The position numbers and the translations under genes were made by a program. From Candidatus Bathyarchaeota archaeon (GTDB lineage: Archaea > Thermoproteota > Bathyarchaeia > Bathyarchaeales > Bathycorpusculaceae), in the NCBI GenBank assembly GCA_026014735.1, contig JAOZHT010000003.1, positions 248,001-312,000 of the forward strand: a stretch of DNA of 64,000 nt, given 5' to 3'. Below the pieces are notes generated by a model, which saw nothing but the letters and a program-made list of their open reading frames with translations, was not told the DNA's origin and ran no database searches. Position 1 is the first letter of the stretch; each line of letters starts with the position of its first letter. Shown here piece after piece: positions 4,102-50,012 of this stretch.

Positions 4102-4836
4102 TTGGTTAGCAAACGCTTTGTGGCATTAACTGCTGTTTTGCTTTTACTGTCCTCATCGTTTATGCTCCCGCTGTGCAGCGCCCAAATTGTTGATTCAGAA
4201 TGGGCTGATGCGATAGATGCCTACTGCTATGAAGTTGATTATGACACGTCAGCGGAGATTGTGGTGTGTGTTTTTCCTTCGCTTACTGGACATGGCATAA
4301 CCGATGGTTCCGGCAAAGAAATCACCGATATAGTGAAGCTGGGCGTTTACGTCTTTAACGATTTGCCGCTTGATGTTGCTGACGGAACCCAAACGGGGAT
4401 TGGCAAGAAGGGCAAAGACAACGGCGTATTGGTGCTGGTGGCCCTTGAGGAGCGGCAGTGGCGCATCGAAGTGGGCTACGGCCTAGAAGCAGACATAACC
4501 GACATCGAAAGCAACCTGATTGCTCAGCAGTATCTGGTCCCCGCGTTTAAAAGCGCCGACTACGGTGAAGGCTTATACGACACCGTTGTGGCATTGGGGG
4601 CGCAGATTCCAGTCACAAATCAAACCCTCACTGACCCCCTCCGCGGCTACTACTTCTACGAAAGCACCGACACCCCAGCGTCGACGCCTACGCCCTTTTG
4701 GCTCCTTGACATCTACGGATTGCCCCTGTGGCTGGTAATCGTGCTCTTGGTGCTCGGTGTGGCCCTCCCCGTGTTTGGTGGACGCGCCAGAGGCGGCGGA
4801 CGCTCAGGCGGCGGGGGAGCAGGCGGAAAATGGTAA
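4102..4836 (+). CDS. TPM-domain membrane protein (YgcG-like)
   Basis: Secreted/membrane protein of 244 aa: a signal peptide (residues 1-28), then a TPM domain with the GKKGKDNGVLVLVALEERQW core and VGYGLEADI, then a C-terminal transmembrane helix (about 207-224) and a Gly/Arg/Ser-rich tail typical of the family. TPM domains are phosphatase- or chaperone-like modules; the substrate is unknown. The start is TTG 4102 with GAGGT about 10 nt upstream. It is co-directional with lemA and likely co-transcribed. It converges on the glycosyltransferase gene with only 4 bp between. Confidence 0.9.
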   Translation: MVSKRFVALTAVLLLLSSSFMLPLCSAQIVDSEWADAIDAYCYEVDYDTSAEIVVCVFPSLTGHGITDGSGKEITDIVKLGVYVFNDLPLDVADGTQTGIGKKGKDNGVLVLVALEERQWRIEVGYGLEADITDIESNLIAQQYLVPAFKSADYGEGLYDTVVALGAQIPVTNQTLTDPLRGYYFYESTDTPASTPTPFWLLDIYGLPLWLVIVLLVLGVALPVFGGRARGGGRSGGGGAGGKW

Positions 4837-4840
4837 AAGG

Positions 4841-5575
4841 CTAGGGGTTTAGGCGGAAAGACAGCATATCCATACCGATTTTTTTGCCGTCCCGCATCGG
4901 ATTCACTTTTGAGCCGCCCCTGTTTCTCTCGCGCCAACAAACCGGAACCTCAGTGACGGGGTAGCCGAGTTGTTTGCATCGCACAATCATTTCGGTGTCA
5001 AAGAAGTAGCCGTCGGTTTTTGATTGACTCAGCACGGCTTGGGCGAGGCTGCGGTTCATGGTTTTAAAGCCGCATTGATGATCATGAATGCCGTCTAGGA
5101 AGAGCAGCCGCACAAACATGTTATATGTTAAGCTAAAGAGGGTGCGTGAGGCTCGGCGTTCCACCTGGGAGCCGGTGACGTGTCGTGACCCGATTGCCAT
5201 GCCGCCTTTGCGCTTCACTACCTCGTAGAGTTTGGGTAAGCAGGCTAAGTCGGTGGCTAAATCCACATCCATGAAGGCTACGATTTTGCCGTTTGAGGCT
5301 TTTACGGCGTTTTTGATGGCTTTGCCCTTGCCTAGTCGGGTGGGTGAATGCAGCAGCCTAAGTGAGGGGTTATGCTGGGACATTTTGGCGACGATTTCGT
5401 CGGTGCCATCCGTGCTGCCGTCTTCGGAAACGATGATTTCGTAGGAGCTGCAGAATTTTTTTAGCGCCGCCTCCACTTCTCCTATGCACCGCTCAATCTG
5501 GACTGCCTCGTTGTAGGCGGGCAGCAGGATCGAGAGTTCCTTGTGGGGCGGTTGTTTCTTCAAGCGTGTGTACAC
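4841..5575 (-). CDS. Family 2 glycosyltransferase (dolichyl-phosphate sugar synthase-like)
   Basis: Cytoplasmic GT-A enzyme of 244 aa with the GT2 elements: ILLPAYNEA at the N-terminus, VSEDGSTDGT (nucleotide-sugar binding), FMDVDLATD (DxD-type metal site) and a QCGFK/W-R catalytic region (HDHQCGFKTM, CWRERNRGGSK). It most resembles dolichyl-phosphate mannose/glucose synthases that build lipid-linked sugar donors for surface glycosylation. The divergently placed gene at 5795 is a GT-C membrane glycosyltransferase, the class that uses such lipid donors, so the pair may act together. It lacks a C-terminal membrane domain. Confidence 0.92.
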   Translation of the reverse strand: MYTRLKKQPPHKELSILLPAYNEAVQIERCIGEVEAALKKFCSSYEIIVSEDGSTDGTDEIVAKMSQHNPSLRLLHSPTRLGKGKAIKNAVKASNGKIVAFMDVDLATDLACLPKLYEVVKRKGGMAIGSRHVTGSQVERRASRTLFSLTYNMFVRLLFLDGIHDHQCGFKTMNRSLAQAVLSQSKTDGYFFDTEMIVRCKQLGYPVTEVPVCWRERNRGGSKVNPMRDGKKIGMDMLSFRLNP

Positions 5576-5710
5576 CTGCGAGCTTAAAAAAGAAATGTGT
5601 CTTAGCCATAAATCACTTGCGTATATCTACGATTAAACCGCGGAGGCGTACATATCGCAAACTCTTTTTAGAGCCATACAATTATTCTCAACCTGAAAGA
5701 GGGGTCGCAA

Positions 5711-7354
5711 ATCATCACTGAATCAGCCAGCATTAGCCTGCAGCCTAAAAGCCCCAGCAGCCGCTTTGTTGCCGCTCACAAGTACCGCCTCGCGTTGCTG
5801 GTGTTTCTGCTGGTTTTTGTTGTGGCTGCGTCGTATGGTTTGGGTTACATGTCGGTTCAGTGGGATGAGATGCCGCATCTCTTCGGAGGCACCCTGCTGA
5901 GCCGCGGGCAAACCTGGGAGTACATGACTACCTACGGCTACTACCCGCCCATCTTTGACATAGTCACCATGGGCTACTTCCATATGTTGGGCGTCAACGA
6001 GGTAGCGGGGCGGCTGGTGGCAGTGACGTTTGCGGCGCTCTCGATTTGGCTGCTTTTCGAATTCGCCAAGCGCAGTTACGGCCAAAAACAAGCCCTCATC
6101 GCAAGCGTGCTCTTGGGGACCATGCCGGGGTTCTTCTGGCTTAGCCGAGTCACCATGCTGGAAACCATGCTCATATTCTTCTTCACACTGGTCATGTTCA
6201 GCTTCTATGTTTGGCTAAGCAAACAGGGCAGCTACCGCGCGCTGGTATTCAGCGGACTCGCGCTGGGCATCGGCGTGTTGGCGAAGTACCAGATCATCGT
6301 TGCCGCCCTCGCTATGCTGCTTAGCATCCTGTTTCTGGCGCGCAAGCAGCTTAAGCTGAACATAGCCAAGTTTCTTCTCATCGTAGTCATTGTGGTGTTG
6401 GTTGCGGCGCCCTGGTTTGCGCTGATTTACCACTACAACGGCATGACCAAATTCGAAACCCTCCAGTACGTGATGAGCGAGGGCGGACAGGACCGACCTG
6501 CCTACAGCAACCGCTTCCAGCCCCTGCCCGTCTACTACCTCGTCGAGATGGCTTGGCCCTTCAACGACATCCCCGTGCACCCCATCACGCTGCCCATCTT
6601 TATCTTGGGGCTCTGCGGCCTTGGTATGTTTGCTTATCGGCGAAGCCGACAGGACATCTTCTTTTTGACCTGGTTTGTGGTGGTGTACGTGTTCTTTACG
6701 CTGATTCCTAATCGGCAATGGCGCTACGTGACGCCTCTTTTCCCGATTTTAGCCATTGCGGCGGCATGTTTTGTGATGTTTCTCTACGGCAAAGTCAAGG
6801 GTTGGCAGCCCCAGTTGCCCAGCCTCAAAGCGGAGCGGGCAAAGAAAGCTGCTGCCATCGCCTTCATCGCATTAATCGCCTCGGCGGTTGCTTACAGCGG
6901 CTATGAAGCCTACCGGATGACGGAGCGCGACCAAATCCACATCCCCGTGCAGGAAGCCACCCGCTACCTTGCATCCCATCTGGGCCCTAATGAGTCAGCT
7001 GCTTTGGTTTGCTCCTTTAACCTGCTTAGCCAGGATATGTTCCGCTTCTATTTGCCCGACAACATGAGCAGCTACCAGATTTGGCAGTACCCCGCGCTTG
7101 CCGTGGACGCCTTTAAACCCGATTTTGACATAGACGAGTTCGTGCAGCTCTGCGTGGACCGACGCGTAAAATACATTATCCTCTTCGACTATGGCATCAA
7201 CACCAAATTCTTCAACACCACCCTCGACTACACTCAGGTGGAAATGATGATTTACAGCACCGGACGCTTCGGCGACCCCAACGACCAGCCGTTTTGGGGC
7301 GACTTCTACGGCAACATGGGCTACCGCATCTTCCTAGTGCGTTTCCTAGGCTAG
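5711..7354 (+). CDS. GT39-type membrane glycosyltransferase
   Basis: Polytopic GT-C family protein (519 aa from TTG 5795). The first loop holds the acidic catalytic motif (VQWDEMPH), followed by about ten hydrophobic segments and an extracytoplasmic C-terminal domain (after residue about 370). It is related to ArnT/PMT enzymes that move a sugar from a lipid phosphate carrier to protein or lipid. The frame stays open upstream of TTG 5795 to at least 5681, with a purine-rich AAAGAGGGG at 5696-5704 but no ATG, GTG or TTG in that stretch. Either TTG 5795 (inside the first membrane helix) is the start, or a rare codon such as ATC 5711 is used. Its stop shares the CTAG tetramer with the convergent PPC gene. 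Confidence 0.85.
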   Translation: MITESASISLQPKSPSSRFVAAHKYRLALLVFLLVFVVAASYGLGYMSVQWDEMPHLFGGTLLSRGQTWEYMTTYGYYPPIFDIVTMGYFHMLGVNEVAGRLVAVTFAALSIWLLFEFAKRSYGQKQALIASVLLGTMPGFFWLSRVTMLETMLIFFFTLVMFSFYVWLSKQGSYRALVFSGLALGIGVLAKYQIIVAALAMLLSILFLARKQLKLNIAKFLLIVVIVVLVAAPWFALIYHYNGMTKFETLQYVMSEGGQDRPAYSNRFQPLPVYYLVEMAWPFNDIPVHPITLPIFILGLCGLGMFAYRRSRQDIFFLTWFVVVYVFFTLIPNRQWRYVTPLFPILAIAAACFVMFLYGKVKGWQPQLPSLKAERAKKAAAIAFIALIASAVAYSGYEAYRMTERDQIHIPVQEATRYLASHLGPNESAALVCSFNLLSQDMFRFYLPDNMSSYQIWQYPALAVDAFKPDFDIDEFVQLCVDRRVKYIILFDYGINTKFFNTTLDYTQVEMMIYSTGRFGDPNDQPFWGDFYGNMGYRIFLVRFLG

Positions 7355-7794
7355 CACTCTAAAAATTCAAAGCCCGTTTGCGTGTTCTTCTCGCGCCGTG
7401 CGGAGCCGCCTGCAAGTTCCAAGATGACGACTTCGCCGATTTGCCACACATCCACGCCCATCCGCACACAGCCCGTAATCGCGTTGTCGTTTCTGCCAAA
7501 ACTCGCATGCATATGCAGCTTAGCGGCGCCTGATTCGTCGCGGAAAAGGGTGCCTACGCCGACGCCTTCATGTACGCCCCGCAGAAGCGTAACCATAGCC
7601 TGCGGCGGCATCGCTTTGCCGTCTTTGGGGCCAACCACCACTTTGCTTTGGTCTTCGGCTCCGCCTAGAAAGAAGCATAGGGCGCTTTGGATTTGTTTGT
7701 CGCTGGCGAATTTTTCGATGACTTCGTGGATGCGTTCGCCTTGGTGGAGGCGGAGTATGAAGATTCTTCCAAGGGTTGCCTCTGTGTAGTCCAT
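7351..7794 (-). CDS. PPC (DUF296) domain protein
   Basis: A 147-aa single-domain protein of the PPC/DUF296 family. It has RIFILRLHQGERI at the N-terminus, and KLHMHASFGRND with its histidines plus TGCVRMGVDVWQIGEVVI, the conserved core around the trimer metal site. In plants the domain occurs in AT-hook proteins; in prokaryotes the function is unproven and DNA binding should not be assumed. A TATA-like TTCTTTTATAG (minus strand, about 7830-7841) is about 40 nt upstream of the ATG. It is convergent with the GT39 gene, sharing CTAG at the stops. Confidence 0.88.
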   Translation of the reverse strand: MDYTEATLGRIFILRLHQGERIHEVIEKFASDKQIQSALCFFLGGAEDQSKVVVGPKDGKAMPPQAMVTLLRGVHEGVGVGTLFRDESGAAKLHMHASFGRNDNAITGCVRMGVDVWQIGEVVILELAGGSARREKNTQTGFEFLEC

Positions 7795-8884: not shown

Positions 8885-9988
8885 TTAAGATGAGCCAAAG
8901 AAACTCATCAGCGATTTCTGCTTATTTTCCTCTCTGCTAAAGCCTGAGACTTTGACACCGACGCGGCGGATTTCCAGCGGCGACTCAGCCAGAAACTTCT
9001 CAAACAGCGCCCGTACGTTGCGGCTGATGGTTTCTTTGTCTTTGGCGGGCTGCTCAAGGGTGACGCTGCGGGTTTTGCTTGACAAATCCACATTCACCAC
9101 ATAGATGGAGACGGTGCGGTAACTGTAGCCCTTCTCGTTGACTTCGCCGTAGACGATGTCTGTTAGCTCAGTGCACTTCTGCATGATGAACTCTAAGTCA
9201 TGGGTGTCCTGCTTTAGGGTGCCGATTTTGCTGATGGATTCAGCCTCGCCCTGCTCGCGGACGGGTTCGTTGTCGACTGCGTTGGCAGCGTTGTGGAAGT
9301 AGATGCCTAAGGCTTTGCCGAAGACCTCGACGAGGCGCTGGCAATCAAAACGGGCAAGCTCACCGATGGTTCTGATGCCCATCTGCTCCATGCGCACCGT
9401 GGTTTTCTTGCCCACGCCCAAAAGGCGGTCCACGGGAAGCGGCGCCAAAAACGCTTCTGCCTCCTGGGGGCGCACGATGGTGAGGCCGTCGGGTTTTTGG
9501 CTGTCACAGGCTATTTTAGCCACCAGCTTGTTGGGTCCCACGCCGATTGTGAAGGATATGCCCACCTGCGTCTTCACGTCAGCTTTGATTTTATATGCGT
9601 ATTCCGCTGCCCTCTCGTAGCTGCCTCCGACCTGCTCGGTGACGTCGAGGTATGCCTCGTCTACGCTGACCTGCTCGAGGCTGCTGGCGTAGCCGCGGAA
9701 TATCTCCATGATGCGGCTGCTGATTTGCTCGTAGTACTCGTGGTCTACGTGGTAGAAGACGGCGTCGGTGCCTTCGAGTTTGCGTTTTGCCATAAACAGG
9801 GGTAGCCCCGATTTGACTCCGTAGCCGCGGGCGATGTAGTTGCTTGTGCTCACTGCGCCGCTTTCTTCGGTGCGTCCCGAGTAGACGCCGACCACGATGG
9901 GTTTATCCTTGATTTCGGGGTGCCGCAGTTCCTCGCATTGCGCAAAGAAGTAATCGAAGTCCGCAAGGAAAACTACCCGAGCTTGCAT
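8885..9988 (-). CDS. dinB: DNA polymerase IV (Y-family)
   Basis: Translesion polymerase of 367 aa. Palm motifs: LADFDYFFAQCEE (first catalytic Asp), YIARGYGVKSG (steric/nucleotide pocket), SVDEAYLDV (catalytic Asp-Glu), and a helix-hairpin-helix region (LLGVGKKT). The C-terminal little-finger domain ends in QKSLMSFF, a good match to the PIP box that docks on the PCNA clamp. The ATG overlaps the stop of the upstream radical SAM gene by 16 nt, so the two are probably translated together as a DNA-damage unit. Confidence 0.96.
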   Translation of the reverse strand: MQARVVFLADFDYFFAQCEELRHPEIKDKPIVVGVYSGRTEESGAVSTSNYIARGYGVKSGLPLFMAKRKLEGTDAVFYHVDHEYYEQISSRIMEIFRGYASSLEQVSVDEAYLDVTEQVGGSYERAAEYAYKIKADVKTQVGISFTIGVGPNKLVAKIACDSQKPDGLTIVRPQEAEAFLAPLPVDRLLGVGKKTTVRMEQMGIRTIGELARFDCQRLVEVFGKALGIYFHNAANAVDNEPVREQGEAESISKIGTLKQDTHDLEFIMQKCTELTDIVYGEVNEKGYSYRTVSIYVVNVDLSSKTRSVTLEQPAKDKETISRNVRALFEKFLAESPLEIRRVGVKVSGFSREENKQKSLMSFFGSS

Positions 9989-10995
9989 TGGTGGTCCTCC
10001 CGAGTTTTAGGCAGCATCCATGAGCCATCACACGCCGCCGTATTCAGTTGCGCTAGTCCTTCGCGGCAGACCCCAAACGCCATGCCCTCCGCAACCACCA
10101 TATCCCGCACCTCATTAAGCAGTTTGAAGCGGTAATCTTTTGGCAACAGCACGCTGCCGCCGACACGCTCACCCAACTGGAAGTACTGGGGTTTTAGCGT
10201 TTCCATCAAGGCGGGGTACGCCGCCGAGAGCCGTTTCCAGCTGTCGGGTTTGGCTTTATACGTTGAGGCGGTTACGTGTTTGACGCCGATGGCGGCGAGG
10301 GTTTTGATGAGTTTTTGGGGTTGACTGTTAAGGTGGGGGATGAGGGGGTCGATGCGGACTGAGACGGGGACGCCAGCTTTTACTAAGTCCTGTGCGGCTC
10401 GGATGCGCTCCGACGGCGTGGGCGCGTTAGCCTCGATTTTTCTGGCAACCTCCGCGTCCTCTGTGGTTATGGTCAGCGCCACGGTAGCGGCTGCCTTGGC
10501 GAGGAGATCGTCGTCGCGGGTGACAAGGTTGCTTTTGGTTATGATTTGGATTCTGCAGTCGCAGTCCACCAGCACCTCAAGACATCGCCGCGTCAAACCC
10601 TCAGTTGCCTCAAGACGCGGGTAAGGGTCAGAGCTGTTGCATAGCGAGATGATTTCGCCATTTAGCTTGGATGCTTCTCGCCGCAGCTGGGGCAGGAGGT
10701 CTTTTTTGGGGTGGCAGTCACCGAAGTTGGGGATGTAGCTTGTGGCGTAGCAGTAGAGGCAGCCGTGGTTGCAGCCCGTGTAGGGGTTAAAGGTGAGTTT
10801 GGCTGGGCAGGTGCAGAGGCCGGAATGCCAGGGGTCAAAGCTTGAAATCAGCGGCACAGTTGTCCCTGAAGTAATATGGATGGGTTGGAAACAAAAAGCA
10901 TTCGCTTCAACGGGGCGGGTTTGCCAAGCCAAGTTTGCATCAGCCACCACAGGATTAGTCAAGGTTTCTTGACGAAAACCCTTTAAAACAACCAT
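9973..10995 (-). CDS. SPL-family radical SAM protein
   Basis: Radical SAM enzyme (340 aa from ATG 10995) of the spore photoproduct lyase-like group (Rv2578c type). PYTGCNHGCLYCYA gives the CxxxCxxC [4Fe-4S] motif, TKSNLVTRD and VSVRIDPLIP are conserved barrel strands. Members are assumed to act on DNA or nucleotide damage, but most are uncharacterised. It overlaps dinB, which supports a repair role. A promoter for the opposite gene (GTCAAG palindrome and TATA, 10958-10990) lies inside the first codons, so a GTG start near 10950 (PVVADANLAW region) is possible. Confidence 0.88.
   Translation of the reverse strand: MVVLKGFRQETLTNPVVADANLAWQTRPVEANAFCFQPIHITSGTTVPLISSFDPWHSGLCTCPAKLTFNPYTGCNHGCLYCYATSYIPNFGDCHPKKDLLPQLRREASKLNGEIISLCNSSDPYPRLEATEGLTRRCLEVLVDCDCRIQIITKSNLVTRDDDLLAKAAATVALTITTEDAEVARKIEANAPTPSERIRAAQDLVKAGVPVSVRIDPLIPHLNSQPQKLIKTLAAIGVKHVTASTYKAKPDSWKRLSAAYPALMETLKPQYFQLGERVGGSVLLPKDYRFKLLNEVRDMVVAEGMAFGVCREGLAQLNTAACDGSWMLPKTREDHQCKLG
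10955..10990 (+). promoter_or_regulatory. Operator and TATA box of the NosD-like gene (P1)
   Basis: Perfect inverted repeat GTCAAG-GTTT-CTTGAC at 10958-10973, a 7-nt spacer GAAAACC, then the TATA-like CTTTAAAA at 10981-10988. The NosD-like gene starts 31 nt downstream (11019). The same arrangement occurs at 12323-12360, 16060-16095 and 49936-49974. A site abutting the upstream side of BRE/TATA usually belongs to an activator in archaea (inference). Confidence 0.7.
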
Positions 10996-11018: not shown

Positions 11019-12302
11019 ATGAAGTCAAAAGCGGTAGTTGCCTTATCACTTGCGGTGTCTGCTTTGATTTTAGCCCAAAGCCTCCTCTGTGCGGTGGCGA
11101 ATTTTACTCCTCTGCCCGAGTTGCCCGCGCCCATCTTCATCCGAGCGGACGGCACCGTGGAGCCAGCGTCAGCGCCCATCCAGCGAGACGAAGACACCTA
11201 CACGTTAACTGGCGACGTCAACAATACCATAGAGATTCAGTGCCCAAACATAGTGCTTGACGGCGGCGGCTTTAAAGTAACTCGACCCGACGTTAACACG
11301 GTGGGGCTTATGATGCCTGTGGGGTGGCTCCCCGGCGTCCACGTGGAGGGAACAAGCAACGTTAAGATTACAAATGTAGTTTTTGATGGCTGCGTGACCG
11401 GGGTAAGCATCGAGAACGCCACCGACGTCACAGTTAGCCAAAACACCATGAGGAACTGCAATAGCGGCGTGGTGGTGTTGTCCTCGTCGCAGGTTGATAT
11501 AGTGGGCAACAGAATCCGCATACCCAACGAGTCTTTTGCCGTGGGAATCAACCTGCTGCCCCTAAACCCCGACTCATCCAACCCCAATCGCATAAGAATC
11601 ATAGGCAACCAAATCGTCGGCTCCCTCACCGCGGCACCTGTACCGCCTGTTCCCCAACCTGACCAGCATGGCATCTGGGGCACCTACAGTGACTCGCAGA
11701 TAACCTCAAACAGCCTAACACGCATCGACGGCATCGCACTCTACAACATGGCCTCAAACAACCTCGTCGCCGACAACAACTTTAGCGAAAACAACGAAGC
11801 CGTACTGGTGAACATAGATCCCGCGGGCTTTTTTGGCAACACATTCTGCGGCAACAACTTCGACCGCAACCTCGTCAACGTGAATATCCCCTACATCCGA
11901 AACTACGGCGCCGAAAGCAACCGCTGGGATAACGGTTCAGTAGGCAACTACTGGAGCGACTATACTGGCGGCGACGGCAACCTCGACGGCGTAGGCGACA
12001 CCCCCTATCTGCTGCAAACCACCTACCCCGACTATGAGCAGCAGACAAACGTGACTGTGCTGGAGGGACAAGACAACTACCCCGCCATGGCGCCCTTTAA
12101 CCTCTCAGGCATCCCTGATCAATCAGCGGGTCCAGTCGGCACAACAGCGGAGCCGTTTCCCCTGGTGCTTGCCGCAGTGGTCTTGGCTGCGTTGATTTTG
12201 GCGGGGGCAGGTTTGGCTGTTTACTTGAGAAAACGCCGCAAACCCGCATCTTCTGCTTCTGAAGTTGATTTTGGGTTAGTCCAGAAACCTTGTGTAAGTT
12301 AG
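11019..12302 (+). CDS. NosD-like secreted beta-helix protein
   Basis: A 427-aa surface protein: signal peptide (1-27), a right-handed parallel beta-helix (NosD/CASH type, roughly 60-330) with repeated short coils such as NITNVVFDGC-like and SQNTMRNCNSG, then DNGSVGNYWSDYTGGDG and DGVGDTPY, the hallmark of this archaeal group. It ends in a transmembrane anchor (about 380-402) and a basic tail. Beta-helix proteins of this kind bind carbohydrate or assist copper-site assembly in Nos systems; the role here is unknown. It is expressed from P1. Its last codons and stop lie inside a tandem operator array serving the next small gene. Confidence 0.88.
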   Translation: MKSKAVVALSLAVSALILAQSLLCAVANFTPLPELPAPIFIRADGTVEPASAPIQRDEDTYTLTGDVNNTIEIQCPNIVLDGGGFKVTRPDVNTVGLMMPVGWLPGVHVEGTSNVKITNVVFDGCVTGVSIENATDVTVSQNTMRNCNSGVVVLSSSQVDIVGNRIRIPNESFAVGINLLPLNPDSSNPNRIRIIGNQIVGSLTAAPVPPVPQPDQHGIWGTYSDSQITSNSLTRIDGIALYNMASNNLVADNNFSENNEAVLVNIDPAGFFGNTFCGNNFDRNLVNVNIPYIRNYGAESNRWDNGSVGNYWSDYTGGDGNLDGVGDTPYLLQTTYPDYEQQTNVTVLEGQDNYPAMAPFNLSGIPDQSAGPVGTTAEPFPLVLAAVVLAALILAGAGLAVYLRKRRKPASSASEVDFGLVQKPCVS

Positions 12303-12360
12303 TCAAGAAACCTTGACTAAGCTTAGTCAACAAACCTTGACAAAAACGCTTTTACTACAT
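12276..12360 (+). promoter_or_regulatory. Tandem operator array and TATA (P2)
   Basis: Three 23-24-bp direct repeats beginning at 12276, 12299 and 12323. The middle unit TTAGTCAAGAAACCTTGAC (then TAAG) is the best palindrome; the first is degenerate; the third, GTCAAC-AAAC-CTTGAC, is followed by the 7-nt AAAAACG and TATA-like CTTTTAC. The first two units overlap the NosD stop codon. The small zinc-finger gene starts at 12390. Confidence 0.7.
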
Positions 12361-12389: not shown

Positions 12390-12560
12390 ATGCCTACAAA
12401 CCACTATGTGATCAACCATAGACTTATCTTGAGAATACAAAAGAAAGGGCGCATTCTCTGCTTGATCTGTCACAAACCCATCCTTGAAGGGCAGCGGGTT
12501 GCCTGCCGCAAAGCCACCGCGGTTAGACATGAAGAATGCTACGAGCGGTCATTCATCTAG
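12390..12560 (+). CDS. Small zinc-finger protein (56 aa)
   Basis: ATG 12390 to TAG 12558-12560. The protein begins MPTNHYVINHRLILRIQKKG and then shows CLICHKPI, CRKATAVRHEEC and a short tail: a CxxC ... C/H ... HxxC pattern of a tiny treble-clef or zinc-ribbon domain. Basic residues before the finger suggest nucleic-acid or protein contact. It is the only ORF downstream of the triple operator P2, which argues that it is real and regulated with the surface genes around it. It could be a transcription cofactor of the regulon (inference). No named family is recognised. Confidence 0.6.
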   Translation: MPTNHYVINHRLILRIQKKGRILCLICHKPILEGQRVACRKATAVRHEECYERSFI

Positions 12561-15882: not shown

Positions 15883-16043
15883 TTTTAAGTTGATTTTACA
15901 GCAAAGAATAGTGCACTGCATAGCTGAGTTACAGTTCAAGTTGCATAGGTAAATATGCTGGCAAATTGGAGTTTTGGCCTTAACACAGTAGTGTCTAAAT
16001 CACCTTGTGGCTGGTTAGTTTTTGCAGGGAGGTTGGTTCAGAA

Positions 16044-16095
16044 AATTAGACTAAGCTTTGTCAAGAAAATTATACAAAAAATCTTTTATTATAAA
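16044..16095 (+). promoter_or_regulatory. Operator and TATA of the beta-propeller gene (P3)
   Basis: TTAGACTAAGC followed by TTTGTCAAG (16058-16066), a degenerate right half TTATAC, a 7-nt AAAAAAT and then CTTTTATTATAAAA as TATA box (16083-16095). Spacing matches P1 and P2 although the right half-site is poor. ATG 16118 follows at the distance expected for a short leader. Confidence 0.6.
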
Positions 16096-16117: not shown

Positions 16118-17530
16118 ATGAAGCAACTGAAATATGCAACTGCGTTCTGCATCGTCCTGCTTTGCAGCGGTTTCTATGTTGCCTACGTCGAGGCCGACTG
16201 GATAATGCCGCATGGAGACCCAACTAACAGCGGAGCAACTGATTTTGACCCAGTGTTAACGCCTTTTCAACTCTGGAACTACTCCACCCCCGGCGACCCC
16301 GTGAGTAATTCACCTGTTGTCGCTAACGGCGTTCTCTACATCGGATTGGAGGATGGCCTCTACGCGTTCAACGCGGCCAGCGGCGCAATTCTGTGGAAAA
16401 ACAGGGACTACCAGATTTTTTCTACACCCGCCGTGGTTGACGGAGTAGTTTATCTTAACTCAAATTTCTCAACTAACGCTTTTAACGCTGCAAATGGGCA
16501 GTTGCTTTGGAAGGTCCAGCAAAATTCCCGCATTTACGCTGCCCCCACTGTTGTAGACGGGGTTGTATACAGTGGCTGCACAGGCTTTGATGACGCCGTG
16601 AATACACACTTTTTGGCTTTAAACGCATCCAACGGCAACCAGATTTGGAATTTGACTATTCAAAGTGAAGTCGAGGGGTCTCCGGCTGTTTACAACGGGA
16701 TAGTTTACCTGAACGCGGGCTTCAGCGGATTATACGCTATGAATGCAAGTACAGGTGAAGAGTTTTGGACCTACAAAATAGAGGGCGCGGGGTCACCCGC
16801 AGTTGCAGAGGGGATAGTGTACGCTGGCAGCGTTGATTGTAACTTTTATGCTTTTAATTCCACCAGCGGCCAGATTATTTGGAGTTATAACACAACTGGC
16901 ACCGATACGGGATGGAAAATCAGCGGAAGTTCCCCCTCCATCAAGTCGGGAGTAGTCTATATTTGCTCAGCTAACAATAACGTGTATGCCTTGAATGCCT
17001 CCACTGGCGCTAAAATATGGAACTACTCAACACAAGATGACATTATTGCATCTCCCGCAATAGCTAGAGATGTTATCTATATCGGCTCAGAAGATGGTAA
17101 CCTTTACGCCCTAAACGCCACCGACGGCTCTAAACTCTGGAACTTTACCGCCCCTCGGTACCGCGACAATGGCTGGATCATCCAATCCACGCCGGCGGTG
17201 GACAATGGAAAAGTTTTCATTGGCTCATTTTACGGGTGCCTCTATGCTTTTGGCAACTCGCCGCCGCCACCTGACCCCACCAGTACCCCGAGCCCTACTC
17301 AGACAATTACAGCCACCCCAACACCGGAGCCAACAGCAGCGCCTACTGCTACGCCTGAGCCGTCACCCACGCCAAACTCAACAGCTACACCTATCCCTAT
17401 TGCAAAAGATACACCCAAAGACGTAATCCAGCTGCTAAGGGATAATCAAGCGTTGATTGTGGTGCTGGTTGTTGTGGGCTTGGTAGTGTTTGGCGGCTTA
17501 GTGGTCGTCAAAGATAAGAGAAAAAATTAG
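16118..17530 (+). CDS. Secreted PQQ-type beta-propeller protein with C-terminal anchor
   Basis: A 470-aa surface protein. Signal peptide (1-27), then seven or so PQQ-like blades with the repeating pattern SPVVANGVLYIG-EDG-LYAFNAASG--LW, a Pro/Thr/Ser-rich stalk (TPSPTQ..., TPTPEPTAAPT) of about 45 residues, a transmembrane helix (about 445-465) and a basic end. Such propellers bind proteins or cell-wall polymers; the residues for true PQQ cofactor binding are not evident. ATG 16118 is chosen because the upstream TTG (16058) lies inside the operator/TATA region. Regulated by P3, so part of the GTCAAG regulon. Confidence 0.88.
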   Translation: MKQLKYATAFCIVLLCSGFYVAYVEADWIMPHGDPTNSGATDFDPVLTPFQLWNYSTPGDPVSNSPVVANGVLYIGLEDGLYAFNAASGAILWKNRDYQIFSTPAVVDGVVYLNSNFSTNAFNAANGQLLWKVQQNSRIYAAPTVVDGVVYSGCTGFDDAVNTHFLALNASNGNQIWNLTIQSEVEGSPAVYNGIVYLNAGFSGLYAMNASTGEEFWTYKIEGAGSPAVAEGIVYAGSVDCNFYAFNSTSGQIIWSYNTTGTDTGWKISGSSPSIKSGVVYICSANNNVYALNASTGAKIWNYSTQDDIIASPAIARDVIYIGSEDGNLYALNATDGSKLWNFTAPRYRDNGWIIQSTPAVDNGKVFIGSFYGCLYAFGNSPPPPDPTSTPSPTQTITATPTPEPTAAPTATPEPSPTPNSTATPIPIAKDTPKDVIQLLRDNQALIVVLVVVGLVVFGGLVVVKDKRKN

Positions 17531-46567: not shown

Positions 46568-47182
46568 TTAGCGTGCGTTGAAAAATGAAGCGTTCGCTTC
46601 GCCCTTAGGCGTATTTAGCTGTTTAAGCAGCCATGCCATGTTCTGGCCCAGCGTCTCCATCGTTTCAAGGCCTTCAGCGTCCTGTTCGACTTCGCCGGGT
46701 GCACGTCCCACGCCTATGTTCCAGTACTGGGAGCCTGGCACAATCATCTGGCTGATGAGGAAAAAGTGGTTAATCCCATCAAAAGTCGTCATGCCGCCTG
46801 CCCGACGCACCGCAACCACGGCGGCTCCGACCTTGCGCCTGAAAAGGTAATCATTATTCATAGCCACATACCCCGCGCGGTCGATGAGGGCTTTAAGTTC
46901 AGGCGTCATCATCCCAAAATAGGTAGGCGACCCCAAAATGACGCCGTCTGCCTCCTCCATCTTTCTGATGTAGGCGTTGACGTTGTCGTTTACGATTTTG
47001 CATTCCTTGTTTTTGAGTTTACGGCAGGTTCCGCATGCGGTGCATCCGTGGATGGGCTGCCCGGCTAACTCGATGAGTTCGGTTCGGATGCCTTCTTTTT
47101 CCAGTTCAGCTAGGACATGGCGGATGAGGACCGCGGTGTTGCCGCCCTTCCTTGCGCTGCCATTAAAAGCTACAACCTTCAT
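46568..47182 (-). CDS. NADPH-dependent FMN reductase / flavodoxin-like protein
   Basis: 204 aa, iron-sulfur flavoprotein type. GSARKGGNT (FMN phosphate loop) at 7-15, CTACGTCRKLKNKEC (cysteine motif of the Isf family, CxxCxxC...C) near 48-62, GSPTYFGMMTPELKALIDR next. It may bind a [4Fe-4S] cluster and move electrons between ferredoxin and an acceptor. ATG 47182 starts MKVVAFNGS; the longer open frame upstream reads as shadow of the next gene. Last gene of the P4 operon. Confidence 0.9.
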   Translation of the reverse strand: MKVVAFNGSARKGGNTAVLIRHVLAELEKEGIRTELIELAGQPIHGCTACGTCRKLKNKECKIVNDNVNAYIRKMEEADGVILGSPTYFGMMTPELKALIDRAGYVAMNNDYLFRRKVGAAVVAVRRAGGMTTFDGINHFFLISQMIVPGSQYWNIGVGRAPGEVEQDAEGLETMETLGQNMAWLLKQLNTPKGEANASFFNAR

Positions 47183-47235
47183 GAAAATCACTTCACCAAA
47201 AAATAAGGGGGCTTGCAGATAAAAGAGTACCGCAG

Positions 47236-48210
47236 CTACCGCTTTCGCCTCAGCAGCCGCAGCGCAACCGTGATAACCGCAGCTAAAGCCACAAACGCCA
47301 CCGAAAAAATAGCCAGCTCCGTGGGGAAAACCGGCGTTTCCTCTTTGGCGGCGGGGACCGGGATTTGAGCTGGTTTCCACATAAGCGGATGGGTGTCCTG
47401 ATTGAGCACGTCCACAACGTAGGGGGTGTCGCCTACTCCGTCGCCGTCTGCGTCGGTGCCATTGTAGTCGCTCCAGAAGTTGCCTTCTTTGCCGTCGTCC
47501 CAGCTGTGTGGGGGTTCGCTGCTGTTGTAGTCTTTGCAGAGGCACCCGTTAAGTTGGATATCGTTGCTTAGAAAGCTGTTGTGGTTGATAACTATGTCCG
47601 AGGGGATGATGTCGCCGTCGGGGTTGTTGAAGCCAAAGAACAGACCGCGCATGTTGTTTTCTATGTGGTTGTAGGTTACGGTGCTGTTTAACCCCGACAG
47701 CAAAATGCCCACAATGTTATCTTGCACACAATTCTGGGTTATAGTATTGTTCTTTGTCCAAACATACATGCCTATGCTGAAGTTTTTGACGTTAAGGTTC
47801 TGGATGGTGATGCCCTCGACGGTTTCAGCACCCAAATCAACGCCGATGGTGTAGGTCGCCACCTGGCTCTGCGGCATCTGATCAGGCCCCTCCCCCACGA
47901 TCCAAACGTTCTCTTTGGTGCCGTTGTAGAGGCCGCTTAGGGTGTAGCCTGCGCCGTCGAGGATTATGTTGCTTTTCTGGATTTTCATGGTTGCCCGAAT
48001 ATCATCGGTTAAGGTGTAGAGGTTGCCGCTGCGCTGGATAGGTGCATCGCTGGGGGAGATGCTGCCGTCGGGTCGGATAAGGATGGTTATTAATGTGTTT
48101 CCCGGCAGGGTACTCTGTGACTGCACCTGTGGCTCAGCGAATATGAAGCCCATCAGCAGCGAAACCGCCACTATCAAAACCGCAATCCCTACCGCTAGTC
48201 GTTTCTGCAT
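47236..48210 (-). CDS. NosD-like secreted beta-helix protein
   Basis: 324 aa, paralogue of the gene at 11019. Signal peptide (1-25), a beta-helix core (NIILDGAGYTLSG, ITIQNLNVKNFSIG, NNTITQNCVQDN, STVTYNHIENN), the EGNFWSDYNGTDADGDGVGDTPYVVD segment (in parts), and a C-terminal transmembrane helix with an RRKR tail. It follows the Fe-S membrane gene by 9 bp. In Nos clusters NosD is a periplasmic factor for copper-site assembly; no NosZ is present, so a different metal or cofactor may be served (inference). Confidence 0.88.
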   Translation of the reverse strand: MQKRLAVGIAVLIVAVSLLMGFIFAEPQVQSQSTLPGNTLITILIRPDGSISPSDAPIQRSGNLYTLTDDIRATMKIQKSNIILDGAGYTLSGLYNGTKENVWIVGEGPDQMPQSQVATYTIGVDLGAETVEGITIQNLNVKNFSIGMYVWTKNNTITQNCVQDNIVGILLSGLNSTVTYNHIENNMRGLFFGFNNPDGDIIPSDIVINHNSFLSNDIQLNGCLCKDYNSSEPPHSWDDGKEGNFWSDYNGTDADGDGVGDTPYVVDVLNQDTHPLMWKPAQIPVPAAKEETPVFPTELAIFSVAFVALAAVITVALRLLRRKR

Positions 48211-48219
48211 TTCCCTCTC

Positions 48220-49845
48220 TCACTCCAACCTTATTGTGTCTGATTTATTTAACCAGTTCCTCGATTTCGCTACCGTCTTTCCCGCCAGCTTAAGCTGCAG
48301 GCAATCTGCATGGGGACACATCTCCACGCATCGCAGGCAGTAAATGCATTGGGAGTTGGCGACGTCGCCGCCTTTCTTCTCGTAAACATCGACGACTTGG
48401 GTGGGGCAGACGCGTTTGCAGATGCCGCATTTGGTGCATTTTTCCTCCACCTTATGCAGCCGCACCCCCGATATCCACTTAAACGGTGGGAAACGGTTAA
48501 ACAGCGCAATCAACGCGCCCAGCGGGCAGATTTGGCACCATGACCGACGGAAAAAGAAGGCTGCCAACGACACAATGGCGAGGATGACTAGGTTTAGTGA
48601 TGTCAAGTAGAAGCCTAACTGTAGAAACTGCCCCGTCGTGCCCTCCACTAACCATTCCGGACGCAGCAACCCAACGCTTGTCTCCGCCAACATGCAAAGC
48701 GGCTTCATGGGGCACACTTGGCAGAACGGCGCTGAATAGTATGTGTAGACGAAACCGCCCTTTTCGGTGCCCGCCACAAGCTCCGTGCCAAACAGGGTTT
48801 GGGAGGCAAACAGGACACAGAGCAGAATAATCACGGCTAGCACAACGTAGCCCAGTTGATGGAGGCGCTCGCTAGACTTGTCTGACAGTTGGCGTTTCCT
48901 GATTTTAAATGCCTTGCGCAGCCGCGTAATCAAATCCATGTATAACCCAAACGGGCATACCCAGCCGCAGAAAATTCTGCCCAGCACCACCGCTCCTAAT
49001 ATGAGCGATCCGAAAACCACTGCTAACCGCGCCAGCCCCGAAGCGTCATAATGTACACCCCAGCCTCCGCCGGCGTTGAAGAAGGGGTAAATGTAGGTTT
49101 GAAGTTCCCAGAGCGCACAGGTCACGGTTTTTCCGCAGGGATAGTAGCAGGCAAAAAAGGGCACTGGGAGACCATCTGGCATGCCCACGCCCAGTACGTT
49201 GTCGGCGATTAGGACTTCGTGGGGCGCTATCTGCTCGGCGGGAACCGGCATGTTGAAGTGATCGATGAATATGCCGAAGAAAATCAAAAACACAAAGCCT
49301 ATCTGCACCATGGTTCGAATCGCAGTTATTTTGCGGGTCTGGTTACGTGTACCAAAGTAAGTTATGACTGCACCTATGCTTAGCAAGGTTGCGCTGACGC
49401 CAATAACCAAGTAATTCGGTTTATAGTTGAGTTCAACCGCGAGGGGAACCGGAGTTGCATCGGGATGGGCGGGGTCGGTGACTTGGGCGAAGAGGCGGTC
49501 GCAGATGTGGCCGTCGATGACAAAGATGTTCCAGTAACCCGCCATGTCCAGTTGCTGGGTGGTTGTGAAGTTGCCGGTTTGGGGGTCAGTTAGGCAGTAC
49601 TGTTCGATGAAGGTATAGTCGGGGCGTGTGAAGGCGATGCGGATGGTTTTGTTGTCGCCGACGGGGCAGACTTGGCCCGAGACAGTGATGGTTTCGTTAA
49701 GGTTAACTTCGGTGCGGTCAACGTCGCCAGTTATGTGGGGTCCATAGCAGGCGCTGGCAGGTTGCACATACTGCGCGTTATAGAGGTAAACGGCGAATAA
49801 GGCAACAACTACCAAGCAGAGTAAGGTTCGCTGTTTAATCCCCAA
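48220..49845 (-). CDS. NapH/NosR-like iron-sulfur membrane protein
   Basis: 541 aa. N-terminal signal-anchor, an extracytoplasmic Ig-like beta domain (about 35-135), then five to six membrane helices interleaved with cysteine motifs: GRIFCGWVCPFGLY, FCQVCPMKPLC and SWCQICPLGAL, and a C-terminal cytoplasmic ferredoxin domain with two [4Fe-4S] sites (KCTKCGICKRVCPT, CIYCLRCVEMCPH). The layout matches NapH/NosR/RnfB-type electron-transfer proteins that carry electrons across the membrane. Start ATG 49845, about 95 nt after promoter P4. Heads an operon with NosD-like and flavodoxin-like genes. Confidence 0.9.
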   Translation of the reverse strand: MGIKQRTLLCLVVVALFAVYLYNAQYVQPASACYGPHITGDVDRTEVNLNETITVSGQVCPVGDNKTIRIAFTRPDYTFIEQYCLTDPQTGNFTTTQQLDMAGYWNIFVIDGHICDRLFAQVTDPAHPDATPVPLAVELNYKPNYLVIGVSATLLSIGAVITYFGTRNQTRKITAIRTMVQIGFVFLIFFGIFIDHFNMPVPAEQIAPHEVLIADNVLGVGMPDGLPVPFFACYYPCGKTVTCALWELQTYIYPFFNAGGGWGVHYDASGLARLAVVFGSLILGAVVLGRIFCGWVCPFGLYMDLITRLRKAFKIRKRQLSDKSSERLHQLGYVVLAVIILLCVLFASQTLFGTELVAGTEKGGFVYTYYSAPFCQVCPMKPLCMLAETSVGLLRPEWLVEGTTGQFLQLGFYLTSLNLVILAIVSLAAFFFRRSWCQICPLGALIALFNRFPPFKWISGVRLHKVEEKCTKCGICKRVCPTQVVDVYEKKGGDVANSQCIYCLRCVEMCPHADCLQLKLAGKTVAKSRNWLNKSDTIRLE

Positions 49846-49935: not shown

Positions 49936-50012
49936 CGCCTATGAAATAAAGCCTTTTTTGTCAAGAAACCTTGAGCAGCCACCAAAGCTTCAGTCAAGAA
50001 AACTTGACTAAC
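49936..50012 (-). promoter_or_regulatory. Double operator and TATA (P4)
   Basis: On the minus strand: AGTCAAGTTTTCTTGACT (50009-49992), 17 nt, TCAAG-GTTT-CTTGAC (49974-49960), 8 nt AAAAAAGG and TATA-like CTTTATTTCAT (about 49951-49941). The two palindromes are about three helical turns apart. Drives the Fe-S/NosD/flavodoxin operon. Confidence 0.7.

Follow-up and report, generated by a model that had tools for sequence, protein, structure and literature searches.

The palindrome GTCAAG-N4-CTTGAC, placed just ahead of a TATA-like box, appears to govern dozens of genes for cell-surface proteins in many Bathyarchaeia. We consider it probable (roughly 0.8) that the palindrome serves a dimeric, sequence-specific regulator as its operator, and the surface-protein regulon of this regulator would comprise roughly 30-40 promoters in the genome studied here. 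The element is real, conserved and, as far as the literature was searched, undescribed, and as a putative activator-type operator it is notable for its scale, its surface theme and its viral copies. Bathyarchaeia are abundant, largely uncultured archaea. The operator comes with spacing rules, its target list would define a coordinated programme for the cell surface that two families have in common, and a 60-bp DNA bait would offer a simple entry point at the bench.

The window, a stretch of 64,000 nt (C3:248001-312000), belongs to genome G000 (2.91 Mb in 10 contigs, 99% complete). A first-pass annotation of the window had reported four promoters, here P1 to P4, that share one palindrome at a near-fixed distance from a TATA-like box. 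Palindrome and box are present at all four, at the positions claimed, and the gaps between them are indeed 7, 7, 7 and 8 nt at P1, P2, P3 and P4. The claim that the palindrome is the same throughout holds only in part: it is perfect at 10958 (P1), carries one mismatch at 12326 and 49960 and is half-degenerate at 16060. Perfect palindromes in the window lie at 10958, 12302 and 49993. The earlier description had overlooked the upstream partner sites, which are found at 12302 and 12279 (steps of 24 and 23 bp), 16036 and 49993-50008.

P1 (plus strand) has a single site, the perfect palindrome GTCAAGGTTTCTTGAC at 10958..10973, with the box CTTTAA 7 nt past it (10981..10986). Its target (11019..12302, plus) encodes a secreted NosD/beta-helix protein with a C-terminal membrane anchor, as judged from the signal and anchor segments and a Pfam NosD match (3e-14). 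On the minus strand, the longest reading frame of a divergent radical SAM-like gene (9973-10995; CxxxxxxC...CLYCYA) overlaps the P1 operator; the true start of that gene is probably further inside the frame. P2 (plus strand) consists of a degenerate third upstream site GTCCAGAAACCTTGTG (12279..12294), a perfect distal palindrome GTCAAGAAACCTTGAC (12302..12317) located 24 bp 5' of the proximal operator, and the proximal operator GTCAACAAACCTTGAC itself (12326..12341, one mismatch), 7 nt past which lies CTTTTA (12349..12354). It precedes the gene of a 56-aa zinc-finger protein (12390..12560, plus), identified by a weak Prok-RING_1 match and by its orthologues. At P3 (plus strand), a weak distal site GTTCAGAAAATTAGAC (16036..16051) lies 24 bp 5' of the proximal operator GTCAAGAAAATTATAC (16060..16075), whose right half is degenerate, and CTTTTA follows after 7 nt (16083..16088). 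The P3 target is a PQQ-type beta-propeller surface protein with a C-terminal anchor (16118..17530, plus, from an inferred start codon; Pfam PQQ_2, 1e-49). P4 lies on the minus strand and combines a perfect distal operator (49993..50008), 33 bp 5' of the proximal site, with the proximal operator CTCAAGGTTTCTTGAC (49960..49975, one mismatch) and the box CTTTAT 8 nt past it (49946..49951). It serves a three-gene operon (46568..49845, minus), assigned by Pfam matches, which encodes a NosR/NapH-like membrane Fe-S protein (48220-49845), a NosD protein (47236-48210) and an FMN reductase/flavodoxin-like protein (46568 to about 47185).

The observation of four promoters is real, and its extent exceeds that first claimed. 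In the 64-kb window a simple pattern allowing two mismatches was found 7 times against 2.5 expected, which is only mildly unusual; because the enrichment of the simple pattern is mild, the window by itself would not settle the matter. A 33-bp matrix was trained on 132 archaeal promoters, none of them from the window, and applied with a score cut-off of 15. Exactly four matches exceeded 15 in the window, at 12323 (P2, 49.4), 10955 (P1, 45.7), 16057 (P3, 31.7) and 49946 on the minus strand (P4, 20.4), and the top scores in 20 shuffled windows were at most 8.6. The window-independent matrix thus returned just the four claimed promoters. The whole genome contains 13 exact and 21 one-mismatch palindromes (0 and 1, respectively, with the pattern reversed as control), and the palindrome together with a TATA-like element occurs 29 times genome-wide, compared to 0 for the reversed pattern. 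The first-pass annotation had reasoned that matches as common inside genes as upstream of TATA boxes would refute its reading. This was not the case: chance-like sites within coding sequence amounted to 2 of 34, both of them atypical.

The consensus derived from 146 archaeal promoters is TTA-GTCAAG-N4-CTTGAC-(A/G)AAAA(C)(G/C)-CTTTTA. The 16-letter operator ends 7 nt before CTTTTA, and a second palindrome upstream is the usual arrangement. The N4 centre (AAAC, GTTT or AAAT) lacks symmetry and can point either way (AAAC 56, GTTT 24), as expected of a symmetric dimer. When sites were chosen blind to TATA, the gap to CTTTWW was 7 nt for 21 sites and 8 nt for 7, with counts of 0-2 elsewhere apart from 3 nt and 28-32 nt. 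This constrained TATA distance, together with the position of the site just upstream of the BRE, supports the activator-type geometry that had been suggested. The minor cluster at 3 nt comprises 7 sites, 5 of which belong to zinc-finger promoters, and the second peak, at 28-32 nt, corresponds to distal sites. Among the 146 promoters, distal spacings of 23-25 bp (n=41), 32-36 bp (n=50) and 41-45 bp (n=16) were found and none of 26-31 or 37-40 bp, where the counts are not independent because they are partly drawn from related promoters. A partner site at 20-39 bp is present in 62% of promoters, compared to 0.6% in shuffles. Spacings within G000 are 23-24 and 33-34, and those in genomes of genus g16 are mostly 34-35 and 44-45. 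Since the spacings step by about 10 bp, or one helical turn, the sites share one helix face, and we take this as strong evidence that two protein dimers would sit along one face of the DNA. The earlier notion of one operator in fixed phase with TATA is hence correct as far as it goes, and it overlooked the tandem helically phased pairs that are the rule.

In order to characterize the targets, we compared genes of at least 100 aa by simple hydropathy rules, not by a trained predictor. An N-terminal signal or transmembrane segment combined with a C-terminal transmembrane segment was assigned on these rules to 23 of the 32 G000 genes behind sites and to 48 of the 277 other genes at these loci (odds ratio 12, p = 4.8e-10). 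Targets include PQQ-type and kelch propellers, NosD/beta-helix proteins, and Ig-like and lectin-like proteins. The bias towards surface proteins is likewise seen at most loci from public genomes and in g16, where many of the target C-termini read PEFPSW...TM...KK. The theme of extracytoplasmic redox or metal-site proteins, which had been put forward from the four promoters, is not supported in that form: surface proteins that are secreted and membrane-anchored make up most of the targets, and redox-related ones form a minority. That minority is conserved and consists of the Fe-S/NosD/flavin operon, a SPASM radical SAM protein and a VGVK-DUF420 membrane protein, the last of which stands behind a site from g1 to g16 and also in operator-poor genomes.

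The exact palindrome was found in 26 of 61 related genomes, with 0 to 19 copies each and 0 or 1 for the controls. It is common in the genus of the window (g1, where it is patchy), in g2 and in g16, which belongs to a different family, and in this 61-genome comparison it is absent from g11, of the same family as g16. Homologous genes in relatives that lack the site had been named as a further argument against a regulon, but orthologues were found to retain it. The zinc-finger gene has 16 orthologues including the window copy, and a two-site TATA-phased promoter is present in 16 of 16, also where the genome is otherwise poor in sites. Mean pairwise identity among these promoters is 0.88 in the site, 0.79 from there to the end of the TATA box and 0.27-0.34 in the more distant flanks. 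For the Fe-S gene of P4, 9 of 13 close orthologues have retained the operator, among them those of G048 and G057 from the other family, and in G048 the order of Fe-S gene and NosD gene is conserved along with the operator. In public genomes the same layout was found at 57 archaeal loci, mostly ahead of secreted proteins, and the genomes with matching promoters are labelled as Candidatus Bathyarchaeota or Crenarchaeota MAGs, which suggests that the host of the window is likewise one of the Bathyarchaeia. A literature search on the operator sequence or on any Bathyarchaeia regulon returned nothing relevant, which is weak evidence as subscription journals were outside the full-text search. As far as this search reached, the earlier designation as an undescribed regulon is supported.

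The genome scan also returned 23 matches in Ruminococcus/Clostridia and similar bacteria, which we rejected as a different element with a centre of mostly TATT or TATC. In rumen Ruminococcus/Clostridia (L068, L073, L079, L083, L095, L108, L115 and others) this is a conserved element like GTCAAGTATTCTTGACAAATTTTCTTTTAAACTTGTCA, where the palindrome coincides with the -35 of an apparent sigma-70 promoter reading the other way. The element looks like the -35 region of an oppositely directed promoter, and it is often close to what we take to be a murE-like gene.

Concerning mechanism, one dimer would bind the palindrome 7 nt ahead of CTTTTA, and at most promoters a second dimer would bind the upstream palindrome, two to four helical turns away on the same face, probably in a cooperative manner. 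The regulator would most likely activate by recruiting TBP/TFB, given that the proximal site is upstream of the BRE and covers neither BRE nor TATA, and that the TATA box is atypical. We infer dimer binding, cooperativity and activation, with the choice between activation and repression resting on geometry. The main rival is a repressor, where the protein bound next to the BRE would hinder recruitment of TFB/TBP or RNA polymerase and a signal would derepress the regulon. Cooperatively spaced tandem palindromes are frequent for repressors too, and a 7-nt gap leaves little space for contacts between TFB and BRE. However, the site overlaps neither BRE, TATA nor start, and archaeal promoters that depend on an activator typically have a non-canonical TATA box (PMC5512572), so we regard repression as unlikely. 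The highly constant TATA spacing and the conserved A-rich stretch in between could also suggest a part of the core promoter, recognized by an alternative TFB or TBP as variant general factor instead of a gene-specific regulator. Dyad symmetry, a centre in both orientations and a helically phased upstream copy are foreign to BRE/TATA, though, and make this very unlikely. We give hardly any credence to phase variation, in which the palindromes would serve as sites of recombination or inversion and thereby reshuffle promoters or surface-protein genes. The palindromes do precede variable surface-protein genes and are present with viral cargo genes, but the TATA box is always on the gene side, most promoters are without a matching copy that would close an invertible segment, and neither TATA phasing nor pair spacing would have a role.

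The gene-specific activator that we favour has parallels among known systems. The archaeal activators Ptr2, LysM and Ss-LrpB use a dimer site at a constrained position, a few bp ahead of the BRE, with additional sites two or three helical turns upstream (PMC2995911). The operator described here has the same position, which is why we prefer activation to repression. It resembles the sites of these Lrp-family proteins in having a palindrome by the BRE at a constrained position with extra sites on the same face, and it differs from them in its GTCAAG-N4-CTTGAC sequence, in that no sampled Lrp gene bears the site, and in its large surface-protein regulon. EarA sites, which occur in multiple copies directly upstream of the BRE of the Methanococcus maripaludis archaellum promoter and are activating (PMC5512572), likewise stand beside the BRE and serve surface-structure genes. 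They measure 6 bp and lie at the fla operon, whereas here 16-bp dyads are found at dozens of promoters.

As to the protein that might bind the operator, we considered several candidates. One is a membrane-anchored ArsR-like protein of about 430 aa with a winged helix (HTH_20 and HTH_5 above cut-off), one membrane helix and a PepSY-like outer domain; its model resembles SmtB/CzrA/BigR, with an outer domain that resembles the vibriolysin propeptide. Full-length copies are present in the operator genera g1, g2 and g16 and in none of the operator-free genera; operator-like sites lie upstream of the copies in G007, G029 and G032 and of a related 360-aa protein in G048 and G057; and the outer domain also occurs in regulon targets, e.g. 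L019_4935. In G000 the ArsR-like domain is encoded at C2:226502-227779 and C4:252252-253532. However, the full-length protein is missing in G005 and G013, which bear the operator and are 95-96% complete, its presence tracks phylogeny with only about two independent contrasts, and many copies are without the operator. We regard this protein as the best of the candidates, yet a doubtful one. The PepSY-like outer domain (L019:3922-4935, L269 and L340:11423-12415) was observed in regulon targets, one of them viral, as well as fused to a membrane-anchored winged-helix protein.

A much less likely candidate is A2, a 320-aa double-winged-helix protein that would be autoregulated through the operator. 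The operator precedes A2 in nine operator-poor genomes (G001, G002, G010, G019, G020, G026, G027, G030 and G031) and in three richer ones (G003, G017 and G022), but in G000 the family is represented by the paralogue A1 alone, behind a palindrome of another kind, and a profile search of G048, G054 and G057 indicated that the whole A family is absent from operator-rich g16. Owing to this absence, A2 is more likely a target than the regulator, and as a general regulator it is largely ruled out. Upstream of the A1 gene, most genomes (e.g. L175, L176, L180 and L191) have a different, conserved palindrome pair, TGACGC.TGTCATA-N-TATGACGCGTGTCA, just past TATTTAAATA. The position is repressor-like, the GTCA half-site core is common with the operator, and these palindromes probably serve autoregulation of A1. 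The Lrp family seems a poor fit as regulator, since no operator was found at about 40 sampled loci and no sampled subgroup follows the operator distribution. Lrp-domain proteins occur in 61 of 61 genomes and are more numerous in many of the operator-rich ones; some Bathyarchaeia have up to 29 Lrp/AsnC-domain matches per genome, and the operator-poor clade of the same genus has 1-5. The zinc-finger protein was also rejected, because it is missing from many operator-bearing genomes.

Scanning IMG/VR for the promoter gave two contigs, and a looser scan gave eleven, of which six are genuine viral matches; the other five (L343, L344, L347, L348 and L349) were discarded as chance or in-gene matches. 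In the six, which are contigs of tailed viruses, surface-protein cargo stands behind the host-type operator and a TATA box, at L340:9999-12415, L341:5286-6515, L342:8630-10015, L345:1270-1989, L346:8271-8936 and L350:1-744. A second site at 24 or 34 bp is present in the cargo promoters of L342, L345 and L350, and one evident site in those of L340, L341 and L346. L342 and L350 have a cargo gene in common. In L340 the cargo shares its contig with virion genes for terminase, major head, neck and minor tail proteins (PHROGs). The cargo of L340, L341 and L345 occupies one spot flanked by the same two virion genes, portal-like and connector-like as inferred from position, and is a kelch protein, a PepSY-like-domain protein or another secreted protein. 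The P1 protein of the window and the NosD-like cargo of L342, which has the same operator, share 47% identity over 338 aa. On the Bathyarchaeota chromosome contig L116 (JAMDCQ010000020.1, about 5600-7500), a kelch gene with the operator, 84-85% identical to the viral kelch genes, lies between short fragments derived from the same two virion genes. This locus looks like a decayed provirus whose surface gene and operator stayed, and it is on these similarities that Bathyarchaeia are the putative hosts of the viral contigs. Virus-like genes were also seen close to operator sites in L144, L268 and L275.

We tentatively propose, at somewhat less than even odds, that tailed viruses of Bathyarchaeia carry exchangeable surface genes under the host operator and thereby, once integrated, alter the host surface under host control, and that the regulon grows by cassettes retained after provirus decay. 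Phage morons are cargo genes with their own promoter. The viral loci described here are like morons in that surface-protein genes with their own promoter stand among virion genes, and unlike them in that the cargo promoter has the operator of a host regulon with its TATA phasing, and in that the viruses are archaeal. A published survey of Bathyarchaeia viruses (PMC10848311) contains the words promoter, moron and kelch nowhere. With the viral copies, a link between surface regulation and infection becomes directly testable, including receptor masking or exclusion of other viruses, and the promoter signature could aid host prediction for unassigned archaeal virus contigs. L342 also encodes two related winged-helix proteins (4566-5399 and 6800-7705), the first with a DUF7347/HTH_20 match, which could act on viral or host promoters.
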